Assembly: GCF_900104665.1 (NCBI RefSeq)
Contig: NZ_LT629967.1
Location: forward strand, 441,624 to 505,623
Direction of reading: 5' to 3'
Origin: Traorella massiliensis
Lineage (GTDB): Bacteria > Bacillota_I > Bacilli_A > Erysipelotrichales > Erysipelotrichaceae
Length of the DNA stretch: 64,000 bases
Positions within the stretch are counted from its first letter, which is position 1. Each line of letters begins with the position of its first letter. Of this stretch, positions 17,038-33,627 are shown in pieces. A program made the translations under genes and the position numbers. The notes beneath the pieces are model-generated. The model did no database searches. It saw nothing but the letters and a program-made list of their open reading frames with translations, and had not been told where the DNA came from.

Positions 17038-17063
17038 AAAAAAAGCATAGCTCAACTATGCTT
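17038..17063 (-). terminator. Terminator of the aro operon
   Basis: AAGCATAG (17043-17050) and CTATGCTT (17056-17063) form an 8-bp stem with a 5-nt loop, followed on the minus strand by a run of T. The stem overlaps the tyrA stop codon. Confidence 0.88.
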
Positions 17064-17910
17064 AAAGATCAAAATATTTTCTTCTCTGGGTAGAAGTAAT
17101 GAATTTTTGTTTCATCTTATTAATGTCTTCTTTTTCAAGAGCGTCTTTGAAATCATTTACTTCATTGACAAAACACTCGATTTCTTTGATGAGATTTTCT
17201 TTATTTAATAAGAATAACTCTGTCCATAGATTTTCATTGATTTTCGCAATTCTTGTAAGATCACGAAAGGAATCTCCCGTATATTCTTTTAAATGTGTAG
17301 AATCATTGGCGTTCATTAAGGAAACTGCAATGACATGGGTCAATTGTGAAAGATAACCAATCATTTCATCATGTTCCTCTACAGTTAATTGACAAATATG
17401 ATTAAATCGAAGTTCTTTGCCAAATTCAACCATGAAGTCAATAGCTTCTTGAGTATTTTGATGTGTAGGAGTAATGATCAGATTGGCAGGTAAAAAGATT
17501 GATGGATCAGCGTATTGTACACCGCTGACTTCTTTACCAGCCATTGGGTGAGCAGGAATAAATTCACAGTCTTCACGTAAAAAGCTTTGTATCTTATATA
17601 CGATAGCACCTTTGACTCCAGTAACATCACTAATCAGAGTATTTGGATGAAAAAGATGTTGATAATCACTGATCCAATTGATAAATGTAGTAGGATAAAG
17701 ACCGGAAATGATGACATCTGCTCTTTGAATTAATTCAGGATCAGTTTCGCAACTGCCTTCATCAATGATATGATGTTCTAAACCATAGGCAATAGCCTTT
17801 GGATCGATATCAATCGCATAAATTTCATGATTCCATTTCTTTAAACCAAGAGCAATGCTTCCGCCTAAAAGACCTAATCCAACAATTAGAAATTTTTTAT
17901 CTTTCATCAT
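17062..17910 (-). CDS. tyrA: Prephenate dehydrogenase
   Basis: Oxidises and decarboxylates prephenate to 4-hydroxyphenylpyruvate for tyrosine. The N-terminal Rossmann motif FLIVGLGLLGGSIALGLK (about residues 6-23) is followed by DVTGVKG, HPMAGKEVSGVQYADP (substrate-binding His) and LTVEEHDEMIGYLSQLTHVIAVSL in the helical dimerisation domain. At 282 aa it is the short monofunctional form without chorismate mutase or ACT domain; the mutase activity must come from PheA. The start (GAGGTG 7 nt upstream) overlaps the end of aroA by 14 nt. It is the last gene of the eight-gene operon and the reason Tyr codons make sense in the leader. Confidence 0.95.
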   Translation of the reverse strand: MMKDKKFLIVGLGLLGGSIALGLKKWNHEIYAIDIDPKAIAYGLEHHIIDEGSCETDPELIQRADVIISGLYPTTFINWISDYQHLFHPNTLISDVTGVKGAIVYKIQSFLREDCEFIPAHPMAGKEVSGVQYADPSIFLPANLIITPTHQNTQEAIDFMVEFGKELRFNHICQLTVEEHDEMIGYLSQLTHVIAVSLMNANDSTHLKEYTGDSFRDLTRIAKINENLWTELFLLNKENLIKEIECFVNEVNDFKDALEKEDINKMKQKFITSTQRRKYFDL

Positions 17911-19162
17911 AGAGTGACACCTCGATTCCTATAGATCTCAAATCTTCGAAAAAAGAAGGATAACTCTTAGAAACAGCTTCACAGCCTTCAATTTCACCGC
18001 CTAATACACTTAAAGCAATCGCACAAGCCATGACAATACGATGATCTTTCCATCCGGATAAAGGGAGCACAGGCTTATGATAGCCACCATGAATGATCAT
18101 TTCATCATGATAGGCTTCAATTGTACATCCCATCTTAGCACATTCGTTGACCATTGCTTCAATACGGTCGCTTTCTTTTAAGCGAAGGCGTGAAGCATTT
18201 TTAATGTGCGTAATTCCTTTTGAAAACATAGCTAGAATGCAAAGAATCGGTCCTAAATCAGGACAATTCTTTAAATCGATGTCATTTGCGATAAGAGAAG
18301 CAGGCTGGATATGATAAATACCATTATTCTCTTCTATACAGCCATTGAAATCGTGAAGAATATCTAAGATTTGTTTGTCTCCCTGTAAAGAAGCGGGATC
18401 CATACCTGCAATATCTAATTCTGCATTAATGGCACCTAGCACACCAAAGAAGGCAAACTGTGAGAAATCCCCCTCAATTATAACATTTTTCGGCTGATAT
18501 TTTTGACTTCCTTGAATAAATAATGTCAAATCATTTTCCCATTCAATGATGATACCAAATTTTTTCATCATTTGAATGGTCAAATCGATATAACTTTTAC
18601 TTTCAAATGGCGGAAGAATATGAATTCTTGAATTTCCTTTAAGCAAAGGAAGTGTAAATAAAAGACCACTGATAAACTGTGAACTGACATTTCCTTGAAG
18701 GGTGTAATCACCACTTACGAATGCTCCTTGGATTTCGATTCGCTCATCATTCTGATCAAAGTATGCACCTATTTTGGTAAAGAGATCCTCATAAATTTTT
18801 TGAGGACGTTTTAATAAACGATTTTTTCCTGTGAATGTAATTTTTTCATTAGTAAGTGAAAAGATCGGGATTAAAAAACGTAGCGTAGAACCAGATTCAT
18901 TACATTCGATATGATGATCCTGAAGGTGTGCAAAATCAGCAATTCCTTCAATAATAAGTGAATCTTTGAAACATTCAATTTTTGCTCCCAGCTTCTGCAT
19001 ACACTTTATCGTTGTTTGAATATCTACAGAATAGTCAATATTAGAAAGATAACTTTTCCCGTTTGCAAGTGAAGCGCAGATGATGGCACGGTGGGCCATG
19101 CTTTTGCTAGGAGGAATTTTTATCATCCCCTTACACTTGGAAGGGCGAATGATCGCTTTCAT
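17897..19162 (-). CDS. aroA: EPSP synthase (3-phosphoshikimate 1-carboxyvinyltransferase)
   Basis: Joins phosphoenolpyruvate to shikimate 3-phosphate, the sixth shikimate step. Seen: PPSKSMAHRAIICASLANG (substrate-binding Lys/Ser at the N-terminus), NESGSTLRFLIPIF (the usual N-x-G-T-x-x-R loop reads ESGSTLR, as in class II-like enzymes), SSQFISGLLF, LRLKESDRIEAM and GWKDHRIVMACAIA. The 421-aa length is normal. SGSTLRF instead of GNAGTALR is the pattern often associated with glyphosate-tolerant class II enzymes; this is inference. Its ATG overlaps the preceding aroF stop by one base (TAATG). Confidence 0.95.
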   Translation of the reverse strand: MKAIIRPSKCKGMIKIPPSKSMAHRAIICASLANGKSYLSNIDYSVDIQTTIKCMQKLGAKIECFKDSLIIEGIADFAHLQDHHIECNESGSTLRFLIPIFSLTNEKITFTGKNRLLKRPQKIYEDLFTKIGAYFDQNDERIEIQGAFVSGDYTLQGNVSSQFISGLLFTLPLLKGNSRIHILPPFESKSYIDLTIQMMKKFGIIIEWENDLTLFIQGSQKYQPKNVIIEGDFSQFAFFGVLGAINAELDIAGMDPASLQGDKQILDILHDFNGCIEENNGIYHIQPASLIANDIDLKNCPDLGPILCILAMFSKGITHIKNASRLRLKESDRIEAMVNECAKMGCTIEAYHDEMIIHGGYHKPVLPLSGWKDHRIVMACAIALSVLGGEIEGCEAVSKSYPSFFEDLRSIGIEVSLYDER

Positions 19163-20178
19163 TAGAGATCACGGCCCACTACATGGGCAATGTTTCTAGC
19201 TTTATCTATTAGTTGTTTGAACTTTTCTGGTTTTAGACACTGGGCGCCATCACTCCATGCACATTCAGGATGTTCATGTACTTCAATGATCAGACCATCA
19301 GCGCCTGCTGCAATAGCTGCCAATGACATAGATTCAATGTATTTCCAATTTCCTGTTGCATGTGAAGGATCAATGATGATAGGCAGGTGAGTTTTTTCTT
19401 TAATGATAGGTACGACACTTAAATCTAATGTATTACGAGTATATTTTTCAAAAGTACGAATCCCTCTTTCACAGAGAATAACATTTGGATTACCGCTTGC
19501 CATGATATATTCTGCGGACATGATCCATTCTTCAATTGTATTAGCTAACCCTCTTTTTAATAGAATGGGTTTATGACTCTTTCCAACAGCCTTCAGCAAA
19601 GAGAAATTCTGCATATTTCTGGCGCCAATTTGAATGACATCCACATATTCCTCAAATTCATCTAATTGATCACTATCCATCAATTCACTGACAATAGGCA
19701 ATCCTGTACGCTTTCTGGCTTCTACCATATCTAAAATTCCTTCTGTTCCTAATCCTTGAAAAGCATAAGGAGAAGTTCTTGGCTTATAAGCACCGCCACG
19801 TAACATACAGGCACCAGCCTCTTTGACATCTTGTGCTAATTGACAGATGTGGTCTAATCCTTCTACACTGCAAGGTCCGCCAATGACAACGATTTTTTCA
19901 TGTCCGCCAACTTTAATCCCATTCACATCAACGATCGTATCTTCCGGATGAAATAAACGATTCGCTTTTTTATATGGTGCAGCAATACGAGTAACGTTAT
20001 CAACGATCGGATTGGCTTTGATCTTTCTTTCATCTAAGGAGGTAGTATCACCAATCAAACCTAAAATATGATAATCGCTTCCTACTGAATCATTGACTTG
20101 GAAGCCTTGGCTTTCAAAATTTTGAATAAGTTCGCTGATCAATGCAGGATCAGCATTTTTCTTTACTGTAACGATCAT
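19162..20178 (-). CDS. aroF: DAHP synthase, second tandem copy
   Basis: Condenses PEP and erythrose 4-phosphate, the committing step. Type I-beta enzyme with an N-terminal ferredoxin/ACT-like regulatory domain of about 90 residues (MIVTVKKNADPALISELIQN). The catalytic barrel follows, with VVIGGPCSVEGL, RGGAYKPRTSPYAFQGLG, QIGARNMQNFSLLKAVG, LLKRGLANTIEEW, CERGIRTFEKYTRNTLD, IIDPSHATGNW and ADGLIIEVHEHPECAWSDG. It is clearly paralogous to the gene directly upstream, sharing nearly all barrel motifs while the N-terminal domains differ more. Two copies in tandem in one operon suggest separate feedback sensitivities (for example Phe and Tyr), which is inference. Confidence 0.95.
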   Translation of the reverse strand: MIVTVKKNADPALISELIQNFESQGFQVNDSVGSDYHILGLIGDTTSLDERKIKANPIVDNVTRIAAPYKKANRLFHPEDTIVDVNGIKVGGHEKIVVIGGPCSVEGLDHICQLAQDVKEAGACMLRGGAYKPRTSPYAFQGLGTEGILDMVEARKRTGLPIVSELMDSDQLDEFEEYVDVIQIGARNMQNFSLLKAVGKSHKPILLKRGLANTIEEWIMSAEYIMASGNPNVILCERGIRTFEKYTRNTLDLSVVPIIKEKTHLPIIIDPSHATGNWKYIESMSLAAIAAGADGLIIEVHEHPECAWSDGAQCLKPEKFKQLIDKARNIAHVVGRDL

Positions 20179-20180
20179 AA

Positions 20181-21197
20181 CTATAAATCCCTTCCTATTA
20201 CATGAGCAATGGCTCTTGCTTTATCTATCATTGCTTTAAACTTATCTGGTTTTAAACATTGCGCACCATCGCTCCAAGCACATTCCGGATTGCGATGAAC
20301 TTCTACGATCAATCCATCTGCACCTGCGGCAATCGCTGCCAGAGACATGCTTTCTACCAGTTCCCAGCTGCCTGTTGCATGTGATGGATCAATAATAATT
20401 GGCAAGTGAGTTTTCTTTTTAACGATCTGTACAACACTTAAATCCAGCGTATTACGAGTATATTTTTCAAAAGTACGAATCCCTCTTTCACAAAGAATGA
20501 CATTTTCATTTCCACCGGCCATGATATATTCAGCACTCATCAGCCATTCTTCGATAGTATTGCTTAAACCACGTTTTAAAAGAACTGGTTTGTTGATTTT
20601 TCCTAAGGCTTTCAGCAGCTCAAAATTCTGCATATTTCTTGCCCCTACCTGAATCAGATCAACATATTTTACGAATTCATCAATCTTGTTTTCACTCATG
20701 ATCTCACTAACGATTGGCAAGCCCGTACGTCTTTTTGCTTCTACCATATCCATGATGCCTTCTGTTCCTAGACCTTGAAAAGCATAAGGCGAAGTTCTTG
20801 GCTTATAAGCCCCGCCACGCAGCATACAGCCACCGGCATCTTTCACATCCTGTGCCAGCTCACAAATCTGATCCAATCCTTCCACACTGCAAGGCCCGCC
20901 AATAACAACAATTTTTTCATGACCTCCTACCTTGATGCCATCAACATCAATGATACTGTCTTCAGGATGAAACAAGCGATTCACCTTTTTATAAGGAGCA
21001 GCCACACGGGTAACATTTTCTACCCAAGGATTGCTCATCAGTCGACGATCATCAATGACAGTCGTATCACCCACGATACCAAAAACATTATAGCTTGTAC
21101 CGGTGATCAGATTAACTTCCAGTCCCTTTGTTTTAAATTCACTCAATATCTTATCAATTTCACTTTGTGGTGCACCCTTTTTACATGTGATGATCAT
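20181..21197 (-). CDS. aroF: DAHP synthase, first tandem copy
   Basis: Same type I-beta architecture as the following gene: ACT-like domain to about residue 90 (MIITCKKGAPQSEIDKILSE) and a barrel containing VVIGGPCSVEGLDQI, RGGAYKPRTSPYAFQGLG, CERGIRTFEKYTRNTLD and IIDPSHATGSW. I choose the ATG at 21197. GGGGG lies 7 nt upstream of it, against 1 nt for the in-frame ATG at 21203, and it forms an ATGA overlap with the aroQ stop. Only two bases separate it from the second copy. The metal-binding Cys (GGPCS), His and Glu residues are present in both copies, so both look active. Confidence 0.95.
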   Translation of the reverse strand: MIITCKKGAPQSEIDKILSEFKTKGLEVNLITGTSYNVFGIVGDTTVIDDRRLMSNPWVENVTRVAAPYKKVNRLFHPEDSIIDVDGIKVGGHEKIVVIGGPCSVEGLDQICELAQDVKDAGGCMLRGGAYKPRTSPYAFQGLGTEGIMDMVEAKRRTGLPIVSEIMSENKIDEFVKYVDLIQVGARNMQNFELLKALGKINKPVLLKRGLSNTIEEWLMSAEYIMAGGNENVILCERGIRTFEKYTRNTLDLSVVQIVKKKTHLPIIIDPSHATGSWELVESMSLAAIAAGADGLIVEVHRNPECAWSDGAQCLKPDKFKAMIDKARAIAHVIGRDL

Positions 21198-21646
21198 ATA
21201 CATTCCCCCTTGTACATTTCTAATTTATTTTTTAAAGCTTTGATACCCGTAACATATCCTTGTATCCCTTGACCGCTGATCGTTTTAAAGCACGCTTGCC
21301 GTACATAAGAAATCTGTCTGAAATCTTCTCTTTCTTCAACCTTAGAAATATGAACTTCTACAGCAGGAATACTGACTGCTTTTAACGCATCCAAAAGAGC
21401 AATTGAAGTATGGGTATAAGCTCCCGGATTGATGACGATGCCATCTACTTTCCCATAAGCCTGTTGGATCTTATCCACTAAATCCCCTTCATGGTTACTT
21501 TGATAACACTCTATCTCAATTTTTAACTCTTTGCCGCAATTCAAACAGGTTTGAATAAGTGTATCAAAAGTCTCACTTCCATAAATATGTTTTTCTCGTA
21601 TGCCCAGCATATTGATATTAGGACCATTAAGCACCAGTATTTTCAT
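21194..21646 (-). CDS. aroQ: 3-dehydroquinate dehydratase, type II
   Basis: Dehydrates 3-dehydroquinate to 3-dehydroshikimate. The sequence opens MKILVLNGPNINMLGIREKH (catalytic Asn/Arg/Tyr region, with HIYGSETFD), then CYQSNHEGDLVDKIQQAYG, VINPGAYTHTSIALLDAL and PAVEVHISKVEEREDFRQ with the catalytic His in the GAYTHTS block. About 150 aa, as usual for this dodecameric type. The start at 21646 follows GGAGGTG and gives the canonical N-terminus; an upstream in-frame codon would add MWRCG. It overlaps the end of the aroE-aroK fusion by 20 nt. Confidence 0.95.
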   Translation of the reverse strand: MKILVLNGPNINMLGIREKHIYGSETFDTLIQTCLNCGKELKIEIECYQSNHEGDLVDKIQQAYGKVDGIVINPGAYTHTSIALLDALKAVSIPAVEVHISKVEEREDFRQISYVRQACFKTISGQGIQGYVTGIKALKNKLEMYKGECI

Positions 21647-22868
21647 TCCACACCTCCACAAGCTTATTTATAGTATTTTCTATAGAATGATTATTTTCAA
21701 TACAAACATCACTATATTTTATATAATAAGGCTCTCGCTCTTTTTCCATCTTACATAAAGTCTCATAGTCTTTGCTTAGCGGTCGTCCATTACCAACACT
21801 AAGCTGACTGACATCACGTTTGATATAAACGATCCATGAATTTAAAGACAAAGCTTTCATATTGATTTCCTTTTTTATGACTCCGCCACCACAGCTGATC
21901 ACAGTATGATTTAATAAACTTGCTTTTAAACATACCTGTGTTTCTAAATCACGAAAAGCTTCTTCACTCTCTTCAAAGATCTCAGGGATCGTTTTTTGGG
22001 CCAATTTTTCAATTTCATGATCCAGATCCATAAAATCATAACCTATTTTCTCACTTAAACATTTGCCAATGGTTGTCTTGCCACAGCTAGGCATACCAAT
22101 CAAAACGATGTTCTGTTTATCATGATAGATTTGTTTTGTCAATTCATCGATTTTAGAAGGATCAATCTGATTTCCAATAAAGAATTCACAGGCACTTACT
22201 GCTTGTGCAACAAGCATTTCTAATCCGTTGACATAAGGAATATGTTTCTTTTTTGCTTGATAACATAAAGCTGTCAGCAACGGATTATAAACGACATCAA
22301 TGACACCTTCACAGTTTTCAAAATCATCAAGATCCACGATCTGAGAAAGAATATCCGGACTCATGCCAACACTGGTCGTATTAATAATGATTTGAATATC
22401 ATACCGTTTTTTCATTTGTTCATAGGTGATATAAGGTGTATTTCGATTTCTGGCTACCTGAATAATTTCTTTGACCTTCAATGCTTCACAAACCGCATAA
22501 GCAGTTTTGCTCGTACCGCCACTGCCGCATATAGCAACTATTTTATTTTCGATATTAAAATGATGCTCGATCATTCTTTTTAAGCCATCAAAATCCGTGT
22601 TTGTAGCAATGAGCTTACCATTGACATTTTTAATGGTATTAATGGCATGAATCTTTTTGGCTTTATCATCAATCTCATCACAATATTCAATGACTTTTTC
22701 TTTATAAGGAATCGTAACATTGATTGCATCAAAGTCTTTTTTCTTCATGAAATGATGAAATTCATCCTCACTTAAGGGAATCAGATCATAATGATAAGGA
22801 GCAATCTGTTCATGAATGATCTTAGAAAAGCTATGTCCTAATTTTCCGCCAATCAGTCCAACTTTCAT
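21627..22868 (-). CDS. aroEK: Shikimate dehydrogenase - shikimate kinase fusion
   Basis: Two consecutive shikimate steps in one polypeptide of about 413 aa. Residues 1 to about 250 are AroE: GLIGGKLGHSFSKIIHEQ, NVTIPYKEKV (catalytic Lys), NTDFDGLKRM (Asp) and an NADPH-binding CGSGGTSKTAYAV. Residues from about 256 are AroK: IVLIGMPSCGKTTIGKCLSE (Walker A), FMDLDHEIE, FRDLE, SCGGGVIKK and NGRPLSKD (lid). The kinase part has all expected motifs, so both activities should be present. AroE-AroK fusions are uncommon. The chosen ATG (22868) makes an ATGA overlap with aroC; an upstream ATG at 22874, closer to GGAGAGGAG, is an alternative that adds two residues. Confidence 0.93.
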   Translation of the reverse strand: MKVGLIGGKLGHSFSKIIHEQIAPYHYDLIPLSEDEFHHFMKKKDFDAINVTIPYKEKVIEYCDEIDDKAKKIHAINTIKNVNGKLIATNTDFDGLKRMIEHHFNIENKIVAICGSGGTSKTAYAVCEALKVKEIIQVARNRNTPYITYEQMKKRYDIQIIINTTSVGMSPDILSQIVDLDDFENCEGVIDVVYNPLLTALCYQAKKKHIPYVNGLEMLVAQAVSACEFFIGNQIDPSKIDELTKQIYHDKQNIVLIGMPSCGKTTIGKCLSEKIGYDFMDLDHEIEKLAQKTIPEIFEESEEAFRDLETQVCLKASLLNHTVISCGGGVIKKEINMKALSLNSWIVYIKRDVSQLSVGNGRPLSKDYETLCKMEKEREPYYIKYSDVCIENNHSIENTINKLVEVWNENTGA

Positions 22869-23950
22869 AAACATAGCCACTCCTCTCCAAAATGCTCAAC
22901 ACATAAATCTAATAGTGCTAAGGCAATCATACTATCTACAACGACTCTTGCACGATGAAAGATGGCAGGATCATGACGTCCGGTTAAGGTCAGGGTATCA
23001 TTTTCCATTGTGCCCAGATTAACGGTATTTTGTTTCTTAAAGATAGAAGCAGTAGGTTTGATTACCAGTTTGATCAAGATTGGCATGCCATTTGAAATAC
23101 CACCGTTGATACCGCCATTATGATTTGTACGTGTTGTTATCTTATCTTTTTCGATCTGCCATTCATCATTGATTTCGCTGCCTTTATAATTTACAAAATC
23201 AAAGCCTAGACCAAATTCAATACCTTTTACAGCAGGAATAGAAAATAAATAACTGCTTAGCTGACTTTCAATTGAATGAAAAAAAGGTTCACCAATGCCA
23301 ACAGGCATATTCAAAACACAGCTTTCAAGAATGCCTCCGACACTATCATGATCTTTCGCAATGTCTTCAATTCGCTGGATCATCTGCTGACCGATAGGAT
23401 CATCTAATGTTGCGAAATCTAACGCATTACACTTTTCTATATCTAAGGCATGATCTACAAAAGAGCGATCTTTAATTTCCTGGCACTGCAAGATATGCGT
23501 ACCAATCAGAATCTTTTTTCTTTTTAAAAGATCTAAAGCAATCGCTCCGGCTGCAACAAGCGGTGCTGTCAGTCTTCCTGAAAAATGTCCGCCTCCACGA
23601 TAATCTTCATATCCCTTATATTTAACATGGGCGACATAATCGGCATGACTAGGGCGAGGAAGTTCAGGATGATAGTCTTTACTACGCTGATTTTTATTTT
23701 CGATCTCAATATGGATCGGAGTTCCGGTAGTATAACCATTGAAAACACCACTCGTAATCTTAAAATCATCAGCTTCATGACGCTGCGTAGATATTTTCCC
23801 TTTAGGCTTACGTTTTTCTAATTGTGCCTGTATAAATTCACGATCAATGACAATACCGGCAGGAAGTCCGTCAATCACAACCCCCATTGCTTCACAATGG
23901 CTTTCACCATATAAAGCAATCGTTATATTTTTTCCAATGACACTTTTCAT
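22865..23950 (-). CDS. aroC: Chorismate synthase
   Basis: Converts EPSP to chorismate using reduced FMN. The 361-aa sequence shows GESHCEAMGVVIDGLPAG (signature 1), RPSHADYVAHVKYKG, DYRGGGHFSGRLTAPLVAAGAIA (signature 2 with FMN contacts), DSVGGILESCV, the EFGLGFDFVNYKGSEIND block and RTNHNGGINGGISNGMPI. GRHDPAIFHRA is present near the end. It begins with an ATGA overlap with the aroB stop, its AGGAGG site lying inside aroB. No flavin reductase is encoded nearby, so reduced FMN must come from elsewhere. Confidence 0.96.
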   Translation of the reverse strand: MKSVIGKNITIALYGESHCEAMGVVIDGLPAGIVIDREFIQAQLEKRKPKGKISTQRHEADDFKITSGVFNGYTTGTPIHIEIENKNQRSKDYHPELPRPSHADYVAHVKYKGYEDYRGGGHFSGRLTAPLVAAGAIALDLLKRKKILIGTHILQCQEIKDRSFVDHALDIEKCNALDFATLDDPIGQQMIQRIEDIAKDHDSVGGILESCVLNMPVGIGEPFFHSIESQLSSYLFSIPAVKGIEFGLGFDFVNYKGSEINDEWQIEKDKITTRTNHNGGINGGISNGMPILIKLVIKPTASIFKKQNTVNLGTMENDTLTLTGRHDPAIFHRARVVVDSMIALALLDLCVEHFGEEWLCL

Positions 23951-24972
23951 AAAGACCTCCTGATATATTGACGAAGATCATCAATTTTAACTTTTTCGAT
24001 GACAGCTTTGCCAAGCTCATTTACTTTGACGATATCAATTTCATTCCCTTTTGCTTTTTTATCATTCTTAATGAAGCGAATGCATTCTTCACAATCAAGA
24101 GAAGTTACAAAAGGAATGTTCATCTTTTTAAGAATTTCAATTAAATCATGACGTATCTGTTCATTTTCCTCGATCATGATCATCCCATTTGCGACACATT
24201 CGCCATGATAATAATCATGAAGATGATAGATACTCTCAATGGCATGACCGATCGTATGTCCAAAATTCAAGATCTTTCGAATATTTTGTTCCTTTTCATC
24301 TTTTTCGACCACTCTTTTTTTCATGAATAAAGATCGTTCGATGATTTCTTCTAAATAAGGACTTTCAACATCGATTTCATCAATATGTTCTTTAAACAAA
24401 TCAAAAATAACAGGGTCCTGGATACATCCGGCTTTTAAAGCCTCAACCAGACCATTATAGAAATGACGCTTGGATAAAGTTTTTAACGTATCAACATCAA
24501 CGATCACAGTTTCAGGATGATAGAAACAGCCTACACAATTTTTAATGCCGTTTAAGTTGATCGCCACTTTGCCGCCAATGCTGGAATCAATCTGCGAAAG
24601 TGTCGTTGTAGGAATAGAAACAAAACGACATCCTCTTTTATATGTACCCGCTACAAAACCTGCAAGATCACCAATGACACCGCCTCCTAAAGCAAGTACC
24701 ATATCTTTTCTTGAAAAATGAAGTGAAAGGAGTTTTTCTAAAAGCATCTGATAAGTATCAAATCCTTTGGAAACCTCACCTTCTGCCACTTCTACTAATG
24801 TAGCATTCTCTAATTGTGCCATTACTTCTTCTTTTAAAGAAAGTGGTATCTGTGTATCGCTGACTACCATGACTTTACAGTTAAAATTGATATAGTCTTT
24901 TAAATGAAGATGACTTTCTCTTTCAATAATGACACGGCTTGACGCATCTTTAAGCTGTACAGTAAATTCCAT
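23947..24972 (-). CDS. aroB: 3-dehydroquinate synthase
   Basis: NAD- and metal-dependent cyclisation of DAHP to 3-dehydroquinate, first gene of the operon. Motifs: EGEVSKGFDTYQMLLEKLL, LALGGGVIGDLAGFVAGTYKRG (NAD-binding), VSIPTTTLSQIDSSIGGKVAINL, the metal ligands in GLVEALKAG, and LNFGHTIGHAIE with a later HGECVANGM. I favour the ATG at 24972 (GGGGG 7 nt upstream); the one at 24975 is possible, and the further upstream frame runs into the terminator of the leader. Expression should depend on read-through of that terminator. Confidence 0.95.
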   Translation of the reverse strand: MEFTVQLKDASSRVIIERESHLHLKDYINFNCKVMVVSDTQIPLSLKEEVMAQLENATLVEVAEGEVSKGFDTYQMLLEKLLSLHFSRKDMVLALGGGVIGDLAGFVAGTYKRGCRFVSIPTTTLSQIDSSIGGKVAINLNGIKNCVGCFYHPETVIVDVDTLKTLSKRHFYNGLVEALKAGCIQDPVIFDLFKEHIDEIDVESPYLEEIIERSLFMKKRVVEKDEKEQNIRKILNFGHTIGHAIESIYHLHDYYHGECVANGMIMIEENEQIRHDLIEILKKMNIPFVTSLDCEECIRFIKNDKKAKGNEIDIVKVNELGKAVIEKVKIDDLRQYIRRSL

Positions 24973-24991
24973 CATATGACCCCCAATGAAT

Positions 24992-25070
24992 AAAAAAAGC
25001 ATCACTTTACTGATGCCGCTTGCCCCATATAAACAAAAGTACCAATCAATGAATTGGCTTGTTTAGGGGC
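24992..25070 (-). promoter_or_regulatory. Attenuator in the aro operon leader
   Basis: On the minus strand the leader-peptide stop is followed by a long hairpin. GCCCC (25066-25070) pairs with GGGGC (25022-25026), and CCAAT with ATTGG forms an inner stem. A terminator then follows: GCATCA (25011-25016) pairs with TGATGC (24999-25004), with seven T (24992-24998), 17 nt before aroB. The exact competing pairing is not clear to me by eye, but peptide, hairpin and terminator occur in the order expected for ribosome-mediated attenuation. Confidence 0.75.
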
Positions 25071-25115
25071 TTAACGATAAAAGTAAAAGCTAGATGCTTG
25101 TTTAAATGTATTCAT
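25071..25115 (-). CDS. Phe/Tyr-rich leader peptide of the aro operon
   Basis: The frame reads MNTFKQASSFYFYR and stop: 5 of 14 residues are Phe or Tyr, with four consecutive codons TTT TAC TTT TAT just before Arg-stop. There is no Trp codon. This matches the end products of the locus (tyrA at the operon end, pheA divergent). A ribosome stalled at the FYFY run for lack of charged tRNA-Phe or tRNA-Tyr would alter folding of the downstream hairpins and allow read-through. Only 6 nt separate the predicted -10 from this ATG, so the peptide may be read from a leaderless 5' end. I know of Phe leaders (pheA, pheST) and Trp leaders in enterics; a Phe/Tyr leader on a full shikimate operon in this lineage I have not seen described. 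Confidence 0.85.
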   Translation of the reverse strand: MNTFKQASSFYFYR

Positions 25116-25121
25116 GGTTTT

Positions 25122-25150
25122 AGTTTACTCGTTTTTTCACATAAAATCAA
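25122..25150 (-). promoter_or_regulatory. aro operon promoter
   Basis: Minus strand TTGATT (25145-25150), 17-nt spacer, TAAACT (25122-25127), then AAAACC and the leader ATG. Confidence 0.65.
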
Positions 25151-25268: not shown

Positions 25269-26339
25269 ATGAACGAATTAGAAAAAGCAAGAATAAAGAT
25301 TAATGAAGCAGATCAGAAGATTGCGGAAAGCTTTGAGAAAAGAATGAAAGCTGTAGAAGAAGTTATTGGTTATAAGATGAAGCATGATCTGCCTATCTAT
25401 GATGAAAAAAGAGAAAAACAGGTAATTGAAAGAAATCTTTCTTTCCTTCATGATGAAAAATTAAAGCCTTATTTTAAAGATTGTCTCAATCAGATGATGC
25501 GCATATCAAAAGAATATCAGAATGCCATACTTCATCAAGGCATTTATGGATATCAGGGAGTCAGAGGTGCTTTTAGCCAGATTGCGACTTCACGTTTATT
25601 CCCTAGCGGTCAGCAAAAAAGCTATTTGCGTTTTGAAGATGTTGTTCTAGGAGTTAAAAATCATGAAATTGAAAAAGGCGTCTTACCTTTTGAAAATTCT
25701 ACAACCGGTGAAGTAGGCGAGGTTTTTGATCTATTATATAAGTATGATGTGAAAATAACTTCCTTTTATGATCTTAAGGTTGATCAGAATCTAATGGGGA
25801 TCAAGGGCAGCCGTTTAAGTGATATCAAGAAGGTGTATTCAAAGCTTCAGGCTTTGGAACAATGTGCTGAAACATTAAAGCCTTTTGATTTTGAATTGAT
25901 TCCTTATGCGAATACCGCATTGGCGGCACGATATGTCAGTGAATGTGCTGATCCAAGCATAGGAGCGATTGCTGCTAAGGAAAGTGCTGAAGAATATGGA
26001 TTAGAGATTCTAATGGAAAATATCAATTCCAGCAGTGATAATGTGACCCGTTTTATCGTAATAGAAAATGAATGCTTAAAATCAGGCGATTTAATTATGA
26101 TCATGTTCACGGTCAATCATGAATCAGGAGCTCTGGCAAAAATCATGCAGATCATTGCGGATTATTCATTAAATATGACAAGCATTAAATCAAGAGCATG
26201 TCGTAATCAGTCATGGCAATATTATTTCTATGTAGAGATCGAAGGTGATCTTGCAGATGAAAGAGTGCAAGCCTGCTTTAGAGAATGTGGGAAACACTGT
26301 GAGTTAAAGATTATCGGATGTGTGAAAGGAGAGAGTTAA
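25269..26339 (+). CDS. pheA: Bifunctional chorismate mutase / prephenate dehydratase (P-protein)
   Basis: Residues 1-85 form an AroQ-type chorismate mutase (ELEKARIKINEADQKIAESFEKRMKAV, a helix with Arg and Lys ligands; YKMKHDLPIYDEKREK). Residues ~95-270 are prephenate dehydratase: YQGVRGAFSQIA, VLPFENSTTGEVGEVFDLL, and SSSDNVTRFIVIE (catalytic Thr-Arg). The end is an ACT domain with ESGALAKIMQIIADYSLNMTSIKSR, the ESRP-like Phe-binding loop. This order matches enteric P-proteins and is not usual in Bacilli. The start at 25269 follows GAGGTG and begins the mutase helix; the upstream extension is rejected because it crosses the promoter. It is the only chorismate mutase in the locus, so it also supplies tyrA. 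Confidence 0.94.
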   Translation: MNELEKARIKINEADQKIAESFEKRMKAVEEVIGYKMKHDLPIYDEKREKQVIERNLSFLHDEKLKPYFKDCLNQMMRISKEYQNAILHQGIYGYQGVRGAFSQIATSRLFPSGQQKSYLRFEDVVLGVKNHEIEKGVLPFENSTTGEVGEVFDLLYKYDVKITSFYDLKVDQNLMGIKGSRLSDIKKVYSKLQALEQCAETLKPFDFELIPYANTALAARYVSECADPSIGAIAAKESAEEYGLEILMENINSSSDNVTRFIVIENECLKSGDLIMIMFTVNHESGALAKIMQIIADYSLNMTSIKSRACRNQSWQYYFYVEIEGDLADERVQACFRECGKHCELKIIGCVKGES

Positions 26340-27584
26340 ATGAATTTTATTAAAGAAAGTGCTGACAAAAAACCGATTGTGGATACTGTGTTTGCGATTG
26401 TCGCAAAAGCAAAAGAAGCAAAGGAAAAGTATGGGGATGAAAACGTCATAGATGCAACCATAGGTTCATTATATGATGAACAGGGACATATCGTTGCATT
26501 CCATAGTGTATTTGAAAGCTTTGATCAGATACCTGCTGCACAGAAGGCTGCCTATGCCGATAGTTTCAGAGGCAATCCTGATTTTAGAGAATTAGTAAAG
26601 AAATGGACGTTAGGTCAGGGTAAGGTCAATCTGGAAAGCAGTGTGATCGCAACTCCGGGCGGTACAGGTGCCGTATCCTTAGTGATGAGTGAATTTTTAG
26701 AAACCGATGAAACAGTGATCCTTCCAGATATCGCATGGGGAAGTTATTCTTTGATGGCAAAGGATAAACAATTGAAAGCAGTCACTTATGAAATGTTTGA
26801 AAATGATCATTTCAACTTAAACTCATTAAAGAAACAGGTTAATGCCTTAGCTGGCAAGCAGAATCGTATTGTTGTGGTCATTAATGATCCTTGTCACAAT
26901 CCAACAGGCTATACGATGACAAAGCAAGAATGGCATGAATTGATTGCTTTTCTAAATGAAGTGGCTAAGACAACGCCATGTATCATCTTGAATGATATTG
27001 CTTATATCGATTATGCTTATGATCTTGAACATTCAAGAGATTATATGCGTGAGTTTGAAGGTATGAGCGATCAGGTCATGGCGGTAATTGCTATGAGCTG
27101 TTCCAAGACATTAACAAGTTATGGATTGCGCTGTGGAGCAGCCGTGATCTGTGCTCATTCTAAAGAAAGCGTAAGAGAAGCTGAAATTGTTTTTGAAAAG
27201 AGTGCTCGTGCCCTTTGGAGCAATGTCAATAATGCGGCTATGATCAATTTTGTCAATGTAGTAAAAGATCATAAAGAAGAATTTTTAAATGAAAAGAAAG
27301 AATATATTCATTTATTAAAAAAGAGAAGTTCTATTTTCATGGAAGAAGCTAAAGCTTGTAATTTACCGGTATATCCATATAAGGAAGGTTTCTTTGTCAC
27401 GATCAAAATAGAAAATAATGACTTAAAAGAAAAATACCATACTCTTTTAATGGAAAATAATATTTTTACAGTTCAAGTCAATAAAGGAATTCGTGTAGGT
27501 ATCTGTTCATTAAGTGTTGAGAAGGCTAAAGGATTAGCTTTGAAGATGAAGCTTCTATTGGATCAGGTTGTTACCACAGAATAA
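26340..27584 (+). CDS. Aminotransferase class I/II, probably aromatic aminotransferase
   Basis: A 414-aa PLP-dependent aminotransferase (AspC/TyrB superfamily). Seen: TPGGTGAVSLVMSEFL, INDPCHNPTGYTMTKQEW (Asn-Pro contacts), ILNDIAYIDYAY (Asp/Tyr to the pyridine ring), SCSKTLTSYGLRCG with the Schiff-base Lys, and a C-terminal IRVGICSLS (substrate carboxylate Arg). It starts directly at the pheA stop (TAAATG) with GGAGAG just upstream. It probably transaminates phenylpyruvate and 4-hydroxyphenylpyruvate, completing Phe and Tyr synthesis. Aspartate use cannot be excluded from sequence. Confidence 0.88.
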   Translation: MNFIKESADKKPIVDTVFAIVAKAKEAKEKYGDENVIDATIGSLYDEQGHIVAFHSVFESFDQIPAAQKAAYADSFRGNPDFRELVKKWTLGQGKVNLESSVIATPGGTGAVSLVMSEFLETDETVILPDIAWGSYSLMAKDKQLKAVTYEMFENDHFNLNSLKKQVNALAGKQNRIVVVINDPCHNPTGYTMTKQEWHELIAFLNEVAKTTPCIILNDIAYIDYAYDLEHSRDYMREFEGMSDQVMAVIAMSCSKTLTSYGLRCGAAVICAHSKESVREAEIVFEKSARALWSNVNNAAMINFVNVVKDHKEEFLNEKKEYIHLLKKRSSIFMEEAKACNLPVYPYKEGFFVTIKIENNDLKEKYHTLLMENNIFTVQVNKGIRVGICSLSVEKAKGLALKMKLLLDQVVTTE

Positions 27585-28517: not shown

Positions 28518-29084
28518 ATGAACAGACGAAAGCTTATCTTACAAATAAAAAATGGCAATCAGGAAGCATTAGAAACAATTATCACCGAAATGTATCCACA
28601 GGTGTATGCTTTTCTGTATCGCAAGATGAAACAGAATGATCGAGCCAAAGATATTACCCAAGAGGTATTCTTAAAATTTGTGGAAAATATCGATCAATAT
28701 AATGAAGAAGATAAGCTGCTCAACTATCTATTTCGCATTGGTATCAATCTTGCCAACAATTATTATAAAAGCTTGAATTATTTGGATGATCGAGAATTGG
28801 ATGAATCAAGGATCATTATAGAAGAAGATCCTCATGCGATCGTAATGAAAAAAGCGAATCACGATATCATGATGAGATATATCTCACAGTTAAGTGAAAT
28901 TTCCCGGGAAATTATCATTCTTCGCTATTATCATGAGATGAAATTTAAAGATATTGCTGATATTTTAAAAATACCGGAATCAACAGCTAAATCAAGACAT
29001 CGACAAGCATTGATGAAATTAGAGGAATTGATGAAAGGAGGCGTGCTGGATGAAAGAAAAAGCGAAATACAAACAGTTTATTGA
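28518..29084 (+). CDS. ECF-type RNA polymerase sigma factor
   Basis: A 188-aa sigma-70 family protein. Sigma-2 region at about residues 20-90 (YPQVYAFLYRKMKQNDRAKDITQEVFLKFVENIDQY, the region 2.2-2.4 block). Sigma-4 at about 120-178 (LSEISREIIILRYYHEMKFKDIADILKIPESTAKSRHRQALMKLEELM, HTH). No region 3 is present, as in extracytoplasmic-function sigmas. It overlaps the following membrane-protein gene by 35 nt and heads an operon with an ABC transporter. It probably drives its own operon under envelope or peptide-antibiotic stress; the -10/-35 it recognises could not be defined here. Confidence 0.93.
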   Translation: MNRRKLILQIKNGNQEALETIITEMYPQVYAFLYRKMKQNDRAKDITQEVFLKFVENIDQYNEEDKLLNYLFRIGINLANNYYKSLNYLDDRELDESRIIIEEDPHAIVMKKANHDIMMRYISQLSEISREIIILRYYHEMKFKDIADILKIPESTAKSRHRQALMKLEELMKGGVLDERKSEIQTVY

Positions 29085-29787
29085 AATTGATGAAGAACAT
29101 ATGAAAAAAACGATTGAACTTTCAAAGCTAAAACTTTCTAAACGAAAGGTCATGTATGAAGAAAATACACATCAGATCTGGCTGAGCTTCTTTAAGATGG
29201 AAAGCATGAAATTTTGCGGGTTATCTGTTTTATCAACGCTTTTCTTCTGTTTTATTTCATTTATTCAGCCAATGAATGGCTACAGTATTTGTCTTATAAA
29301 TGCTGGTGTTTTAGGAACACTGATCTTATATGATTATATACACGGAAGCATCATGGGAATGGACGAACTGTTGAAATGTGTTAAGTATAACTCATCCAAG
29401 ATTTTTGTTTATAAATCAAATATATATCTTCTGGTCAGCATTGTATGTACATTATTTTTGAATGTGATATTTTGTGTTCAAAACAACTTTTCTTTTTTAC
29501 CAACGCTTTTATATAGCTTGATTCCTCTTTATTTTATTAGTGGTTTGGCTCTTTTGATCGTAGACAGGATCAGTAATAAAATGACATTGATCATTACTTA
29601 TGCCTGCAGTTATTTAGTTGTGTTGTTGTTTTTAAATCAATATGATGTAAGAATCATCAGCAATGCTTTTATTCTTTTTCTTTTATTCATATCGTTTGGT
29701 ATATACTGCATAAGCATTTATGTTCATTCAACACGAATTTCAATTGAGAAAGGAAATAATTTATGGAACTTATTCTTGAAGGATTAA
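29050..29787 (+). CDS. Membrane protein, probable anti-sigma or transporter partner
   Basis: A 245-aa protein I cannot assign to a named family. A cytoplasmic N-terminus of about 55 residues rich in Lys/Glu (KYKQFIEIDEEHMKKTIELSK) precedes six hydrophobic segments (about 57-75, 80-97, 120-140, 146-165, 172-192, 200-220). Location directly after, and overlapping, an ECF sigma gene and before the ABC ATPase suggests a membrane anti-sigma factor whose N-terminal part holds the sigma. No zinc HxxxCxxC anti-sigma motif is present, which weakens this. AAAGGAGG lies 8 nt before the ATG and confirms the start inside the sigma gene. Confidence 0.75.
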   Translation: MKEKAKYKQFIEIDEEHMKKTIELSKLKLSKRKVMYEENTHQIWLSFFKMESMKFCGLSVLSTLFFCFISFIQPMNGYSICLINAGVLGTLILYDYIHGSIMGMDELLKCVKYNSSKIFVYKSNIYLLVSIVCTLFLNVIFCVQNNFSFLPTLLYSLIPLYFISGLALLIVDRISNKMTLIITYACSYLVVLLFLNQYDVRIISNAFILFLLFISFGIYCISIYVHSTRISIEKGNNLWNLFLKD

Positions 29788-30650
29788 CAAAACAATATTC
29801 AAAAACAGTAGCGGTCGATCATGTAGATCTAAAACTCAACAAAGGGGTGATCGGTCTTTTAGGTGCGAATGGGAGCGGTAAGACGACGATCATGAAAATG
29901 ATTTGTGGGATACTGTCACCAACAACAGGTCATGTTTATTATGATAATCAGGAAATTTTAAAAAATTATGACAGTTATGTGACAAACTTAGGCTATATGC
30001 CACAGCAGCTAGGGTTTTATCCATCTTTTACCGTACAGGAATTTTTAGAATATATGAGCGTAGTCAAAGGATTAAAAAAGGAATTTTATAAAAAGAAGAT
30101 TGATGAGCTTTTGGTACGGTTGAATTTAGAGGATAAGAGAAAGGCTAAGATCAAAAGCTTATCGGGAGGCATGCTTAGACGTTTAGGAATTGCCCAGGCA
30201 TTATTAAATGAACCAAAGATCCTGATTTTAGATGAACCAACGGCAGGGCTTGATCCAAAAGAAAGGATCGTGCTGCGAAATATGATTTCTCGTATTGGTG
30301 AAGAAGCTATTGTTTTACTTTCTACACATATTGTAAGTGATGTAGAGTCCATTGCTGATCAGATTATTTTAATGAAAAAAGGAAAAGTATTATATTATGA
30401 TGAGCCGGATAAGCTTCTGTTAGAAATGGAAAACAAAGTCTTTGAAGCAAGCTGTAATCGAAAGCAGGCAGAAGAATATATGATGAATCATATTGTTGTC
30501 AATGTGAAAAAACATCAGGACGAATATGTTTTACGTATCGTATCAGATAAGCCAATTGAAAATGCTCAAACGGTTGAACCTGGACTAGATGACTTGTATT
30601 TATATCATTTCCAGGATGAGGCGATGGAACGTTTAAGTGATCAATTATAA
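29763..30650 (+). CDS. ABC transporter ATP-binding protein
   Basis: A 295-aa ATPase of the drug/bacteriocin-export or lantibiotic-immunity class. Walker A GLLGANGSGKTTIMKMICG (about residues 31-49), Q-loop YMPQQLGFYP, signature LSGGMLRRLGIAQALLNEPK, Walker B ILILDEPTAGLDP and the H-loop STHIVSDVESIADQ. A ~75-residue C-terminal extension follows (NKVFEASCNRKQAEEYMMNH onward), as in CcmA-type exporters. It overlaps the upstream membrane gene by 25 nt. It should energise the three permease-like proteins that follow. Confidence 0.93.
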   Translation: MELILEGLTKQYSKTVAVDHVDLKLNKGVIGLLGANGSGKTTIMKMICGILSPTTGHVYYDNQEILKNYDSYVTNLGYMPQQLGFYPSFTVQEFLEYMSVVKGLKKEFYKKKIDELLVRLNLEDKRKAKIKSLSGGMLRRLGIAQALLNEPKILILDEPTAGLDPKERIVLRNMISRIGEEAIVLLSTHIVSDVESIADQIILMKKGKVLYYDEPDKLLLEMENKVFEASCNRKQAEEYMMNHIVVNVKKHQDEYVLRIVSDKPIENAQTVEPGLDDLYLYHFQDEAMERLSDQL

Positions 30651-30707
30651 ATGGAAGATAGAGTAGAGTGAAATGGGAAAATTTGAAACATGAAAGGGGG
30701 GAATGCA

Positions 30708-32165
30708 TTGGGGAAGCTTGTTTATTTTGAAATAAAAAAACTAATGAAGATTAAATTTAATTGTTTTTTGATCTTATTAACATTTATTCTTTGCTTAGGA
30801 ATTTTATTTATAAAAAATACAAATAGATTATCTTCTAGCAGGCAATATGCTTCTTTTGAGGGAGAAACTCTAAATAATAAAGAAGTTTATCGATATGTAG
30901 ATACTTTCTTTCATGAACATAGAGGTATTGTTAATGATGAATATATCAATAATTTAAAAGAAGCAGAAAATTTAATCATTCAAGAATATCAGCTTGATGA
31001 AATTGATGAAGAAAAAATGATCATGACGTATGGTAAAAACTATCAAGAGATCATACAGGCAGGTATTGATGGAAGCATGAGTGATCATGAAATTTTCGCA
31101 ATCAATGAGAAAGCAAAAGAAAATAATGAAATTTGTAAATCGGAATCATGTATTTTGACATCCAATGAGGTTGCTTATGAAAAATATGGAATAGAAGAAG
31201 TCAATGAAGAAGATCATACATTTACGATAAGATATTTTTATGAAAAAGAAGAAAGCCGAAATCTATTAAATCTTCTTTTATATGGAAGCCAATCTTATAC
31301 AAATGAATATACAGTAGAATTACTTCATCATAAAGAAGAGAAGGTTGCTGATACAAAGAATTATATCGTAGGAGGAAATGCTAGTAATACGAATTATTGG
31401 CGTGTAAGTGAAGATATCGAAGAAGAATATATTGAATGGCAGAATCAGAAATATTTAAATGCTCCAGAGCGAACTGATTCTGGAGTAGGTGCGACGATGT
31501 TTGTACAAGCATTAACTACTCAAAATAATCCACTTTTAGTTGTACTGCTTCTATGTATTGTCATCCTTGTTTGTCAGGTTTTTACAATTGATCATGACTA
31601 TGAAATGGAGTCAATGCTTTTATGTTCAAAAAAAGGCTACAGCAGTGTTATGATCGCTAAAATTATAACGGCGTGCTTAATTCCTTTAGCACTGCTTCTG
31701 ATCTATCTTTTTTTAGCGTGGATAACTGTCAGCGTGATCGTTCCTATAAGAAATCTGGATATTGTTTATGTTGAGTGGATTGAAAATCGTCCGTTTATAT
31801 TTGAAGGTATTTATACATATAAAGAAATTTTGTTTACTGAGATGTCTTTGATATTTATGTCATTTTTGGCTGCTTCTGGTATTGCTGCATTTGTTTCGAC
31901 GCTTTTCAAAAATAAATTTATAGGGCTCATGCTAGTTTCATCTATAATTGTTGTGATGACTTTATATAAAAATATCTTTACTCCAGGTATGATGTTAACA
32001 ACGATGAATTATCTAAGCTGGAATGGTGTCATGGGTATCAATATGATGAAAGTGGGCACTATGATCGTATCTAAAGCCTTCTGTGCATGTGTACTTTGGT
32101 GTCTGATAGATGCAGTATTGTGTATCTTATGTCTTTTAAATCAACGAAGACATATCGTGAGGTAA
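30708..32165 (+). CDS. ABC-2 type permease-like protein, paralogue 1
   Basis: A 485-aa membrane protein. I choose the TTG at 30708 over the ATG at 30690. GGGGGG sits 6 nt before the TTG, and the protein then starts (M)GKLVYFEIKKLMKIKFN, aligned with both paralogues (MVKLIQFELKKIFKSKFN, MIKLIQFELKKIFKSKFN). Topology: one N-terminal membrane helix (about 18-36), an extracellular region of about 230 residues with the conserved block YGKNYQEIIQAGIDGSMS, then six C-terminal helices from about 260. It ends QRRHIVR like its neighbours. Substrate unknown; export of or defence against an extracellular peptide is a likely role. Confidence 0.85.
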   Translation: MGKLVYFEIKKLMKIKFNCFLILLTFILCLGILFIKNTNRLSSSRQYASFEGETLNNKEVYRYVDTFFHEHRGIVNDEYINNLKEAENLIIQEYQLDEIDEEKMIMTYGKNYQEIIQAGIDGSMSDHEIFAINEKAKENNEICKSESCILTSNEVAYEKYGIEEVNEEDHTFTIRYFYEKEESRNLLNLLLYGSQSYTNEYTVELLHHKEEKVADTKNYIVGGNASNTNYWRVSEDIEEEYIEWQNQKYLNAPERTDSGVGATMFVQALTTQNNPLLVVLLLCIVILVCQVFTIDHDYEMESMLLCSKKGYSSVMIAKIITACLIPLALLLIYLFLAWITVSVIVPIRNLDIVYVEWIENRPFIFEGIYTYKEILFTEMSLIFMSFLAASGIAAFVSTLFKNKFIGLMLVSSIIVVMTLYKNIFTPGMMLTTMNYLSWNGVMGINMMKVGTMIVSKAFCACVLWCLIDAVLCILCLLNQRRHIVR

Positions 32166-32167
32166 CT

Positions 32168-33625
32168 ATGGTAAAACTAATACAATTTGAATTAAAGAAA
32201 ATATTTAAAAGTAAATTTAATTTGATATTACTGATCATAGCGATTGTTTTTCAATGTGTTATGCTAAATAAATATGTATTTAATTCTGAATATCCTACTC
32301 TTCAAATGAAAGATAATACTGTTCTGTCAGGAATTGATATGTATCTTTATTATGATAATTTTTATATCCAGCATCAAGGTACTGTAAATGATGAATATAT
32401 CAATGAATGGAAACATGAATATTATGATAAATTAGATGAAGTTCTTGATAAGGAAAAAATGATTCAAATATATGGTGATAACTATAAAGAAATGATGATC
32501 GCAGGAGAAAATGGAACATTGAATAAGGAAGAAGTACAAGCCTATGTTGATTTTGTAAAAGAAAGGAGTCAGAAATTGAATTTAGAGTATGCTCCGATAT
32601 CTTTTTCTGAAGAAAATCCTCATAATTTTCATATTGATCTATATTTTGAGTCTGAAATGGAAGAATATGTATATACCTTAAAAGAATTATACTTTGGTTC
32701 CAACTTTGAAAATGAAAATAACTATTTGAATATTCTTAACCAATCAAAAGATCATAAAATAATAGCTTCCGAGATTGACGGTGAAGTAGAAATCAAAGAT
32801 TTAGGTTTCTTGGAATATTTGGATCATCCTGAATATGAACTTATTTCTCAGCTGAATATGAATCAAATAAACTGGTTAAATGTAAAATGTGAAAATGTAC
32901 CATCTCTGATGGATACTACAATAGGGGCAGGAATTCTTAATCATGCATTTGGTGAATTTATAATTAATTTAATTTATTTTTTATGGCTCATTGTAGTATG
33001 CTCGAATTTATTTGTGTGTGAAAATGATAAGCAAACGGATGCGCTCTTAGCATGTTCCAAAGGGTATAAAAAAATAACAATGGCTAAAATTTTGACGATG
33101 TTTCTGTTAAGCCTCACAGTATTCTTGTTAAGCATATTTATAAACTCTATTTCTGTTTTAACATCATTTCAAATCAAAAATCTTCATCTTGCATCTTATG
33201 GTTTTTCTATCATTTATTCTGGATTGACAGTAATCTTGTATACTTGTTATGAATTATTAGCAAGGCAAATGGGATTGATATTTTGTAGCTTTTTGTGTGT
33301 GGCAGGATTGAGTGCTTTTCTATCATGTTTTACGAAAAGTCGCTTTATAAGTGCGGTGTTCATGATGATGTTTGTAGTATTACCGATGTTTTTACCAATG
33401 TTCACAAACGGAAACATATTGTTTTCCCTTATGCCGTTAATTATGAATCATACCACAACGTATTTTAGTTTGAACTATGGTATGGCTGGTTTAATTTCTC
33501 CCATTGTTGATCTAGGCGGTACAATCATTCATACCGCAACCCTTGTCTGTCTATTCTGGATCATTGTTTCAATTATTCTTATGATTGGCTGTTATATAAA
33601 ACAACAAAGACACATCGTGAGGTAA
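32168..33625 (+). CDS. ABC-2 type permease-like protein, paralogue 2
   Basis: 485 aa, starting MVKLIQFELKKIFKSKFN at the ATG behind GAGG; the longer upstream reading overlaps paralogue 1 and has no ribosome site. Same plan as the first: an N-terminal helix, an extracellular domain with IYGDNYKEMMIAGENGTLN, then helices around ILNHAFGEFIINLIYFLWLIVV, and the final IKQQRHIVR. The first ~75 nt are nearly identical to those of paralogue 3, including the ribosome-site region, indicating recent duplication or gene conversion at this junction. The extracellular domains have diverged much more than the ends. Confidence 0.85.
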   Translation: MVKLIQFELKKIFKSKFNLILLIIAIVFQCVMLNKYVFNSEYPTLQMKDNTVLSGIDMYLYYDNFYIQHQGTVNDEYINEWKHEYYDKLDEVLDKEKMIQIYGDNYKEMMIAGENGTLNKEEVQAYVDFVKERSQKLNLEYAPISFSEENPHNFHIDLYFESEMEEYVYTLKELYFGSNFENENNYLNILNQSKDHKIIASEIDGEVEIKDLGFLEYLDHPEYELISQLNMNQINWLNVKCENVPSLMDTTIGAGILNHAFGEFIINLIYFLWLIVVCSNLFVCENDKQTDALLACSKGYKKITMAKILTMFLLSLTVFLLSIFINSISVLTSFQIKNLHLASYGFSIIYSGLTVILYTCYELLARQMGLIFCSFLCVAGLSAFLSCFTKSRFISAVFMMMFVVLPMFLPMFTNGNILFSLMPLIMNHTTTYFSLNYGMAGLISPIVDLGGTIIHTATLVCLFWIIVSIILMIGCYIKQQRHIVR

Positions 33626-33627
33626 CT

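Follow-up and report, generated by a model that had tools for sequence, protein, structure and literature searches.

A probable Phe/Tyr leader-peptide attenuator in front of the shikimate operon of Traorella massiliensis and related Erysipelotrichaceae

Organization of the aro locus

The window analysed here, a stretch of 64,000 nucleotides from the gut bacterium Traorella massiliensis (Erysipelotrichaceae), carries on its reverse strand an operon of eight genes in the order aroB-aroC-aroE/K-aroQ-aroF-aroF-aroA-tyrA (NCBIfam names). The gene identities bear out the first-pass annotation of this DNA, which had described a shikimate operon ending in tyrA and lying opposite pheA. Two tandem DAHP synthase paralogues are present in this one operon (19162–21203), and shikimate dehydrogenase and shikimate kinase are fused as aroE-aroK (21627–22880). 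The features of the locus are as follows.

25145–25150, (−) strand: −35 box TTGATT, predicted from sequence
25122–25127, (−) strand: −10 box TAAACT, predicted, its end exactly 6 nt upstream of the leader ATG
25071–25115, (−) strand: leader ORF of 14 codons encoding MNTFKQASSFYFYR, from the ATG at 25115 to the TAA at 25071 (sequence and genus conservation)
25093–25099, (−) strand: region 1, AAGCATC, complement of the terminator 3' arm GATGCTT (25003–24997), from RNA folding
25077–25088, (−) strand: sensor codons TTT TAC TTT TAT (Phe-Tyr-Phe-Tyr), conserved in 5/5 genus genomes
25022–25070, (−) strand: hairpin P, GCCCC...GGGGC, 49 nt, starting at the first nucleotide past the stop codon (folding, z −3.7)
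25033–25058, (−) strand: inner hairpin GCCAAT..ATTGGT and U-rich bulge ACTTTTGT within P, conserved in the alignment
24992–25017, (−) strand: intrinsic terminator GGCATCA-GTAAAG-TGATGCT followed by U7 (stem-loop 25017–24998, U7 24998–24992)
23947–24975, (−) strand: aroB, first gene of the operon, downstream of the leader (NCBIfam)
17062–23950, (−) strand: aroC, the aroE-aroK fusion, aroQ, two DAHP synthases, aroA and a tyrA-type prephenate dehydrogenase (NCBIfam)
25269–27584, (+) strand: divergent pheA (chorismate mutase/prephenate dehydratase) and an aminotransferase, outside the control of this leader (NCBIfam)

The order of the elements is thus promoter, leader, hairpin, terminator and aroB. 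The Phe-Tyr-Phe-Tyr leader, the large hairpin and the terminator reported in the first-pass annotation are all present in the sequence, and the codons do match the pathway products, the leader ORF ending in TTT TAC TTT TAT CGT TAA with its run of end-product codons placed before the first gene. The terminator lies directly before aroB as described, but the gap between its U7 and the aroB ATG (24975) is 16 nt and not 17 nt; a G-rich ribosome site precedes aroB. The spacer between hairpin P and the terminator is AAGC. Folding of the 134-nt leader RNA gives −40.1 kcal/mol compared to −21.6 kcal/mol in shuffles (z = −5.7). The inner hairpin and the U-rich bulge inside P look like an RNA polymerase pause site. 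Two features, the TTGATT-17-TAAACT promoter 6 nt from the leader ATG and the pairing of AAGCATC with the terminator 3' arm, lie outside what had been annotated earlier.

Elsewhere in the window, inspection by eye revealed a candidate sigma-factor-like gene (28518–29084) ahead of a cluster formed by a candidate ABC ATPase and three paralogous membrane proteins of ~480–510 aa (29763–35061). A candidate ISL3-like transposase is located at 37157–38557, and an ORF at 12044–12640 is, again as a candidate by eye, similar to the C-terminal portion of maturase/reverse transcriptases of group II introns.

Promoter and start of the leader transcript

No Shine-Dalgarno sequence precedes the leader ATG in the window. 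The same type of promoter (TTGATT or TTGCAA, 17 nt, TAAACT) is also present in all four other members of the genus and in G024, a genome outside the genus. Among the 46 leaders taken into the promoter and codon-run analyses, 13 leaders from six genera, including that of the window, have 17-nt promoter spacing, a −10 box whose end is exactly 6 nt from the ATG, and no Shine-Dalgarno sequence. In the remaining leaders the best promoter is mostly 15–24 nt upstream and the ATG is usually preceded by GGAG or GAGG. If +1 lies seven nucleotides past the −10 box, the transcript would start with the AUG itself, and judging from these positions the 13 transcripts should be leaderless. Leaderless leaders of this kind would, if real, be unusual in Bacillota.

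Conservation of the leader peptide

The leader is found in 5/5 genomes of the genus, at one site per genome and only upstream of aroB. The N-termini of the five peptides (MNTFKQASSFYFYR, MNRLRQASCFYFYR, MNMKANASYFYFYR, MKNVASYFYFYC and MKIVNNAFFYFYR) differ while FYFY is constant, the C-terminus being FYFYR or FYFYC with a strict stop position in all five. The Tyr codons are exchanged synonymously between TAC and TAT, and the leader of G024 also ends in FYFYC. When 149 genomes of the class were searched with the motif of the genus, only two sites besides that in the window, both pyrimidine-rich, were recovered. His-codon runs, with 36 sites in the genome, are uninformative.

The leader recurs throughout the family. 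Mini-ORFs ending in F/Y occur in 48 of 90 aroB upstream regions (window included) under a strict rule, by which a short ORF must have four or more aromatic residues among its last seven. Ten dinucleotide shuffles gave 1–9 such regions and the reverse strand gave 6. The F/Y frame, whose lack in relatives had been named earlier as the finding that would speak against a leader peptide, is therefore conserved in the genus through synonymous changes and recurs family-wide. As relatives throughout the family have this arrangement of leader and terminator, it is very probable that the speed at which ribosomes read the F/Y codons switches the operon. We accordingly regard it as highly probable that the Phe/Tyr leader is a ribosome-mediated transcription attenuator which senses charged tRNA-Phe and tRNA-Tyr.

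In such an attenuator RNA polymerase would start at or adjoining the leader AUG and would transcribe, in order, the 14-codon leader, the large hairpin starting at the stop codon and the terminator ahead of aroB. The supply of charged tRNA-Phe and tRNA-Tyr would determine where on the terminal Phe/Tyr codons the ribosome stands, and this position would govern whether the hairpin forms, and hence whether transcription stops before aroB or reads through into the eight genes. Translation of the leader, termination of transcription and the response to Phe/Tyr are all predicted from the sequence here. The composition of the aromatic run agrees with sensing of both amino acids. In the 46 leaders 231 of 252 codons of the run (92%) are F/Y in frame, with 143 Tyr, 88 Phe and no Trp; both F and Y are present in 42 leaders, and the first two aromatic codons cover both in 30. 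Since F and Y alternate, the first two codons of the run contain both sensors, and a shortage of either amino acid would be read.

The strictness of the last residues (FYFYR/C) and of the stop position in the genus would also be expected of an arrest peptide, the FYFYR C-terminus of which stalls the ribosome on free Phe, Tyr or a pathway intermediate, just as TnaC is an arrest peptide responding to Trp. However, C-termini vary freely across the family (YYYYE, FYYYL, FYFYF, YFYFTFR, YYYCG) and only the F/Y content is retained, which makes an arrest peptide extremely unlikely compared to the sensing of charged tRNAs by the reading ribosome.

By the strict rule, 42 of the 90 upstream regions have no leader, a point against attenuation, although several of them do contain a weaker or decayed ORF. 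In the regions classed as leader-free aroB often follows directly behind pheA, or a decayed ORF stands before a retained terminator. Four of the aroB upstreams (L008, L009, L017 and L018) retain the terminator without a recognisable ORF, the leader apparently having been lost. These four would suit a constitutive leader, with a relic ORF and a terminator that merely reduces basal expression, but conservation at the codon level in the genus and recurrence in the family with different hairpin sequences argue against it, and we consider this explanation highly improbable. Attenuation by the ribosome, on the other hand, is consistent with both of these patterns of conservation.

Structural classes of the leaders

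Class A/B comprises 24 leaders, with that of the window among them. In all 24 hairpin P begins 0–2 nt past the stop codon (9.4 expected from shuffles), with a median z of −3.2. The arms of P (GCCCC/GGGGC, ATCGTTATAA/TTATAACGAT, TCCCAGATCAA/TTGATTTGGGA, CCCCGAT/ATCGGGG, GCCAAACA/TGTTTGGC and others) differ in sequence between genera and yet pair, which means that complementarity has been kept while the sequence has changed. Nearly all class A/B leaders have a small hairpin and then a U-rich bulge inside P. Class C leaders possess a GGGC..GCCC hairpin and three copies of an element similar to GAUAAUGCC, present at the leader end, in the hairpin loop and in the terminator, all of which match the complementary segment GGCAUUAUC.

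The position of P bears on whether the tract is read as codons at all. As F/Y codons are rich in U, any U-rich tract could give F/Y by chance, and the tract might then be a pyrimidine-rich binding site for a protein or an sRNA. However, the other two frames of the run encode mostly Ile, Leu and Thr as against 92% F/Y in frame, and the class A/B frame always ends at a stop 0–2 nt before P. A binding site is thus very unlikely, and these data favour a tract translated as Phe/Tyr codons.

T-boxes and Rfam motifs

No Rfam family reaches its threshold in the window and no T-box (RF00230) is matched there. The genome as a whole has 18 T-box candidates, 16 of them strong, and none of the 18 is located at the aro operon. 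Strong T-boxes precede serS, ileS, trpS, valS, hisS, tyrS, thrS, alaS, leuS, asnS, cysS, pheS and others (gene names read from the translations). In a sister family of the order, a T-box above the gathering score precedes the aroF-aroB operon in 9/9 regions (L155–L162 and L164), with a UUC (Phe) specifier by alignment, read by eye. Among 20 upstreams of members of the family without the leader, no T-box was found.

Class C leaders match RF04312, the trpB motif, at 35–50 bits, which is under its gathering score of 59 (L012, 2502–2599; L007, 2501–2596; L024, 1354–1447). The window leader (L001), L002 and L006 gave no match to this family. In 196 genomes of the order and 392 of the phylum, RF04312 matched only two aroB leaders and one other leader, situated before an ammonium-transporter-like gene, all sub-threshold and none of them a true member of the family. 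The orphan trpB motif (SRC-39-1, RF04312) has been described as a riboswitch candidate, possibly an attenuator, with no leader peptide described (PMC11109978). It resembles the class C aro leaders in being a two-hairpin leader with an antiterminator in the right shoulder of P1. The match of the class C leaders leads to a concrete hypothesis for this orphan RNA, namely that the trpB motif may represent the 3' half of an attenuator with a leader peptide.

The abundance of T-boxes in this genome, their control of the equivalent operon in the sister family and the sub-threshold trpB matches in class C might suggest that the aro leader is itself a riboswitch or a T-box-type tRNA sensor, the short ORF being incidental. 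We find this very improbable given that the window has no Rfam match at threshold and that conservation is focused on the F/Y codons with their third positions free, a pattern which points instead to codons read by a ribosome.

Alternative folding and direction of the switch

For folding, the ribosome was modelled as occluding the RNA between positions 15 nt before and 12 nt after the start of the A-site codon, and terminators (or upstreams) swapped between relatives served as control. In class C, sequestration of the terminator 5' arm by its own upstream exceeds that by swapped upstreams when the ribosome is placed on the first F/Y codon (p = 0.0014). Own-upstream sequestration is also above swapped in the absence of the ribosome (p = 0.0014), and with the ribosome at the stop codon own and swapped are alike (p = 0.71). 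Pairing between spacer and terminator is −10.9 kcal/mol for own and −8.7 kcal/mol for swapped combinations (p = 0.0006). In this model the folding of class C fits the textbook logic for starvation, with an antiterminator that would be specific in sequence and linked to the stalled ribosome.

In class A/B, comparison of own with swapped combinations identified no upstream element with specific pairing to the 5' arm of the terminator, whatever the ribosome state. In the genus and G024 the strong alternative fold is a pairing of the leader with the terminator (AAGCATC:GATGCTT in the window, GGCATC:GATGCC, AAAGCGTC:GGATGCTTT and so on). Equilibrium folding of the window and five relatives gives terminator probabilities of 0.84–0.97 when a ribosome occupies the first F/Y codon; without a ribosome they are 0.00–0.06 in four of the six, 0.47 in L003 and 0.9 in L002. 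For the naked RNA of the window the terminator probability is 0.01 with its own terminator and 0.69 with swapped ones, and it is 0.87–0.96 with a ribosome on the F/Y codons. Mean pairing of the leader segment with the terminator arm is −7.8 kcal/mol in nine leaderless leaders, −3.6 kcal/mol in class A/B leaders with a Shine-Dalgarno sequence and −4.0 kcal/mol in class C; own versus swapped gives p = 0.07, a value that is modest partly because the relatives have common sequence.

Taken at face value, the folds of the window genus predict that transcription reads through when no ribosome is present and terminates when one occupies the F/Y codons, which is the reverse of feedback under starvation. 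Equilibrium folding is unable to settle a kinetic switch, and both this direction and the choice of antiterminator in the genus are tentative. The alternative hairpins anticipated in the first-pass annotation do not give the textbook switch in the genus: a fold that blocks the terminator is predicted there, but for RNA free of ribosomes, and it is in class C that such a fold is supported for the stalled state.

One reading of these folds, which we regard as doubtful, is that in the leaderless class the leader RNA is itself the antiterminator, its first codons bridging hairpin P to pair with the 3' arm of the terminator. If true, such an attenuator would be ON by default, with read-through for as long as no ribosome has loaded on the AUG at the 5' end, and would be gated by leaderless initiation plus the F/Y codons; in the textbook case an untranslated leader terminates instead.

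Two further candidates were rejected. An extension of P, pairing the last sense codon and stop with the 5' side of the terminator (UCG:CGG, UGCU:GGCA, GAAUAG:CUAUUC), seemed plausible on inspection but could be ruled out as an antiterminator because own pairs are not stronger than swapped ones (p = 0.49–1.0). Sequestration of the terminator by the freed 3' arm of P in the stop state is seen in the folds but is equal in the swapped controls.

Relation to known systems

Leader-peptide attenuators are well known from the pheA, trp and his operons of enterobacteria, the pheL peptide of E. coli being rich in Phe. The leader described here resembles them in having a short ORF rich in codons for pathway products and a hairpin and terminator before the first gene. 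However, its single run joins two amino acids and occupies the very end of the ORF, it would govern the entire shikimate trunk together with tyrA, it has no Rfam match and it is predicted to be leaderless in the genus. Leaderless poly-Cys attenuator ORFs in mycobacteria have reportedly been described by Canestrari and colleagues in 2020; these are likewise leaderless codon-run ORFs reporting amino-acid supply, but for cysteine and in Actinobacteria, whereas the Erysipelotrichaceae leaders would sense Phe/Tyr.

Candidate His leader peptides with alternative hairpins have been proposed for his operons of Erysipelotrichales (Ashniev et al. 2022, PMC9413887). These belong to the same order and are also predicted leader peptides in genomes without a T-box at the operon, but in the parts of that study available to us they concern His codons and the his operon, and aro genes are not treated. 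The uORFC-13-1 motif before aroF in Acholeplasma has a predicted uORF with Phe codon(s) and a terminator (PMC8632094). It is similar in placing a Phe-codon uORF and a terminator upstream of a shikimate-pathway gene, and differs in having only at least one Phe codon, in preceding aroF and in comprising 24 sequences, with no Tyr alternation described. The earlier view that control of the whole shikimate pathway by a Phe/Tyr leader peptide is unusual in a Firmicute needs a qualification, since candidate leader peptides in Erysipelotrichales and Acholeplasma have been described; the aro F/Y case is apparently undescribed. F/Y leader peptides before aroB in Erysipelotrichaceae were not found in the literature searched, which covered few subscription papers and is not proof. 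Dual F/Y control of an entire shikimate operon in this family thus appears to be undescribed, although leader-peptide attenuators as such are known.

In the host genome T-boxes serve tyrS and pheS and not aro. At the shikimate operon this family has a leader peptide for two amino acids and the sister family a Phe T-box, which would be a clear instance of one RNA control device standing in for another.
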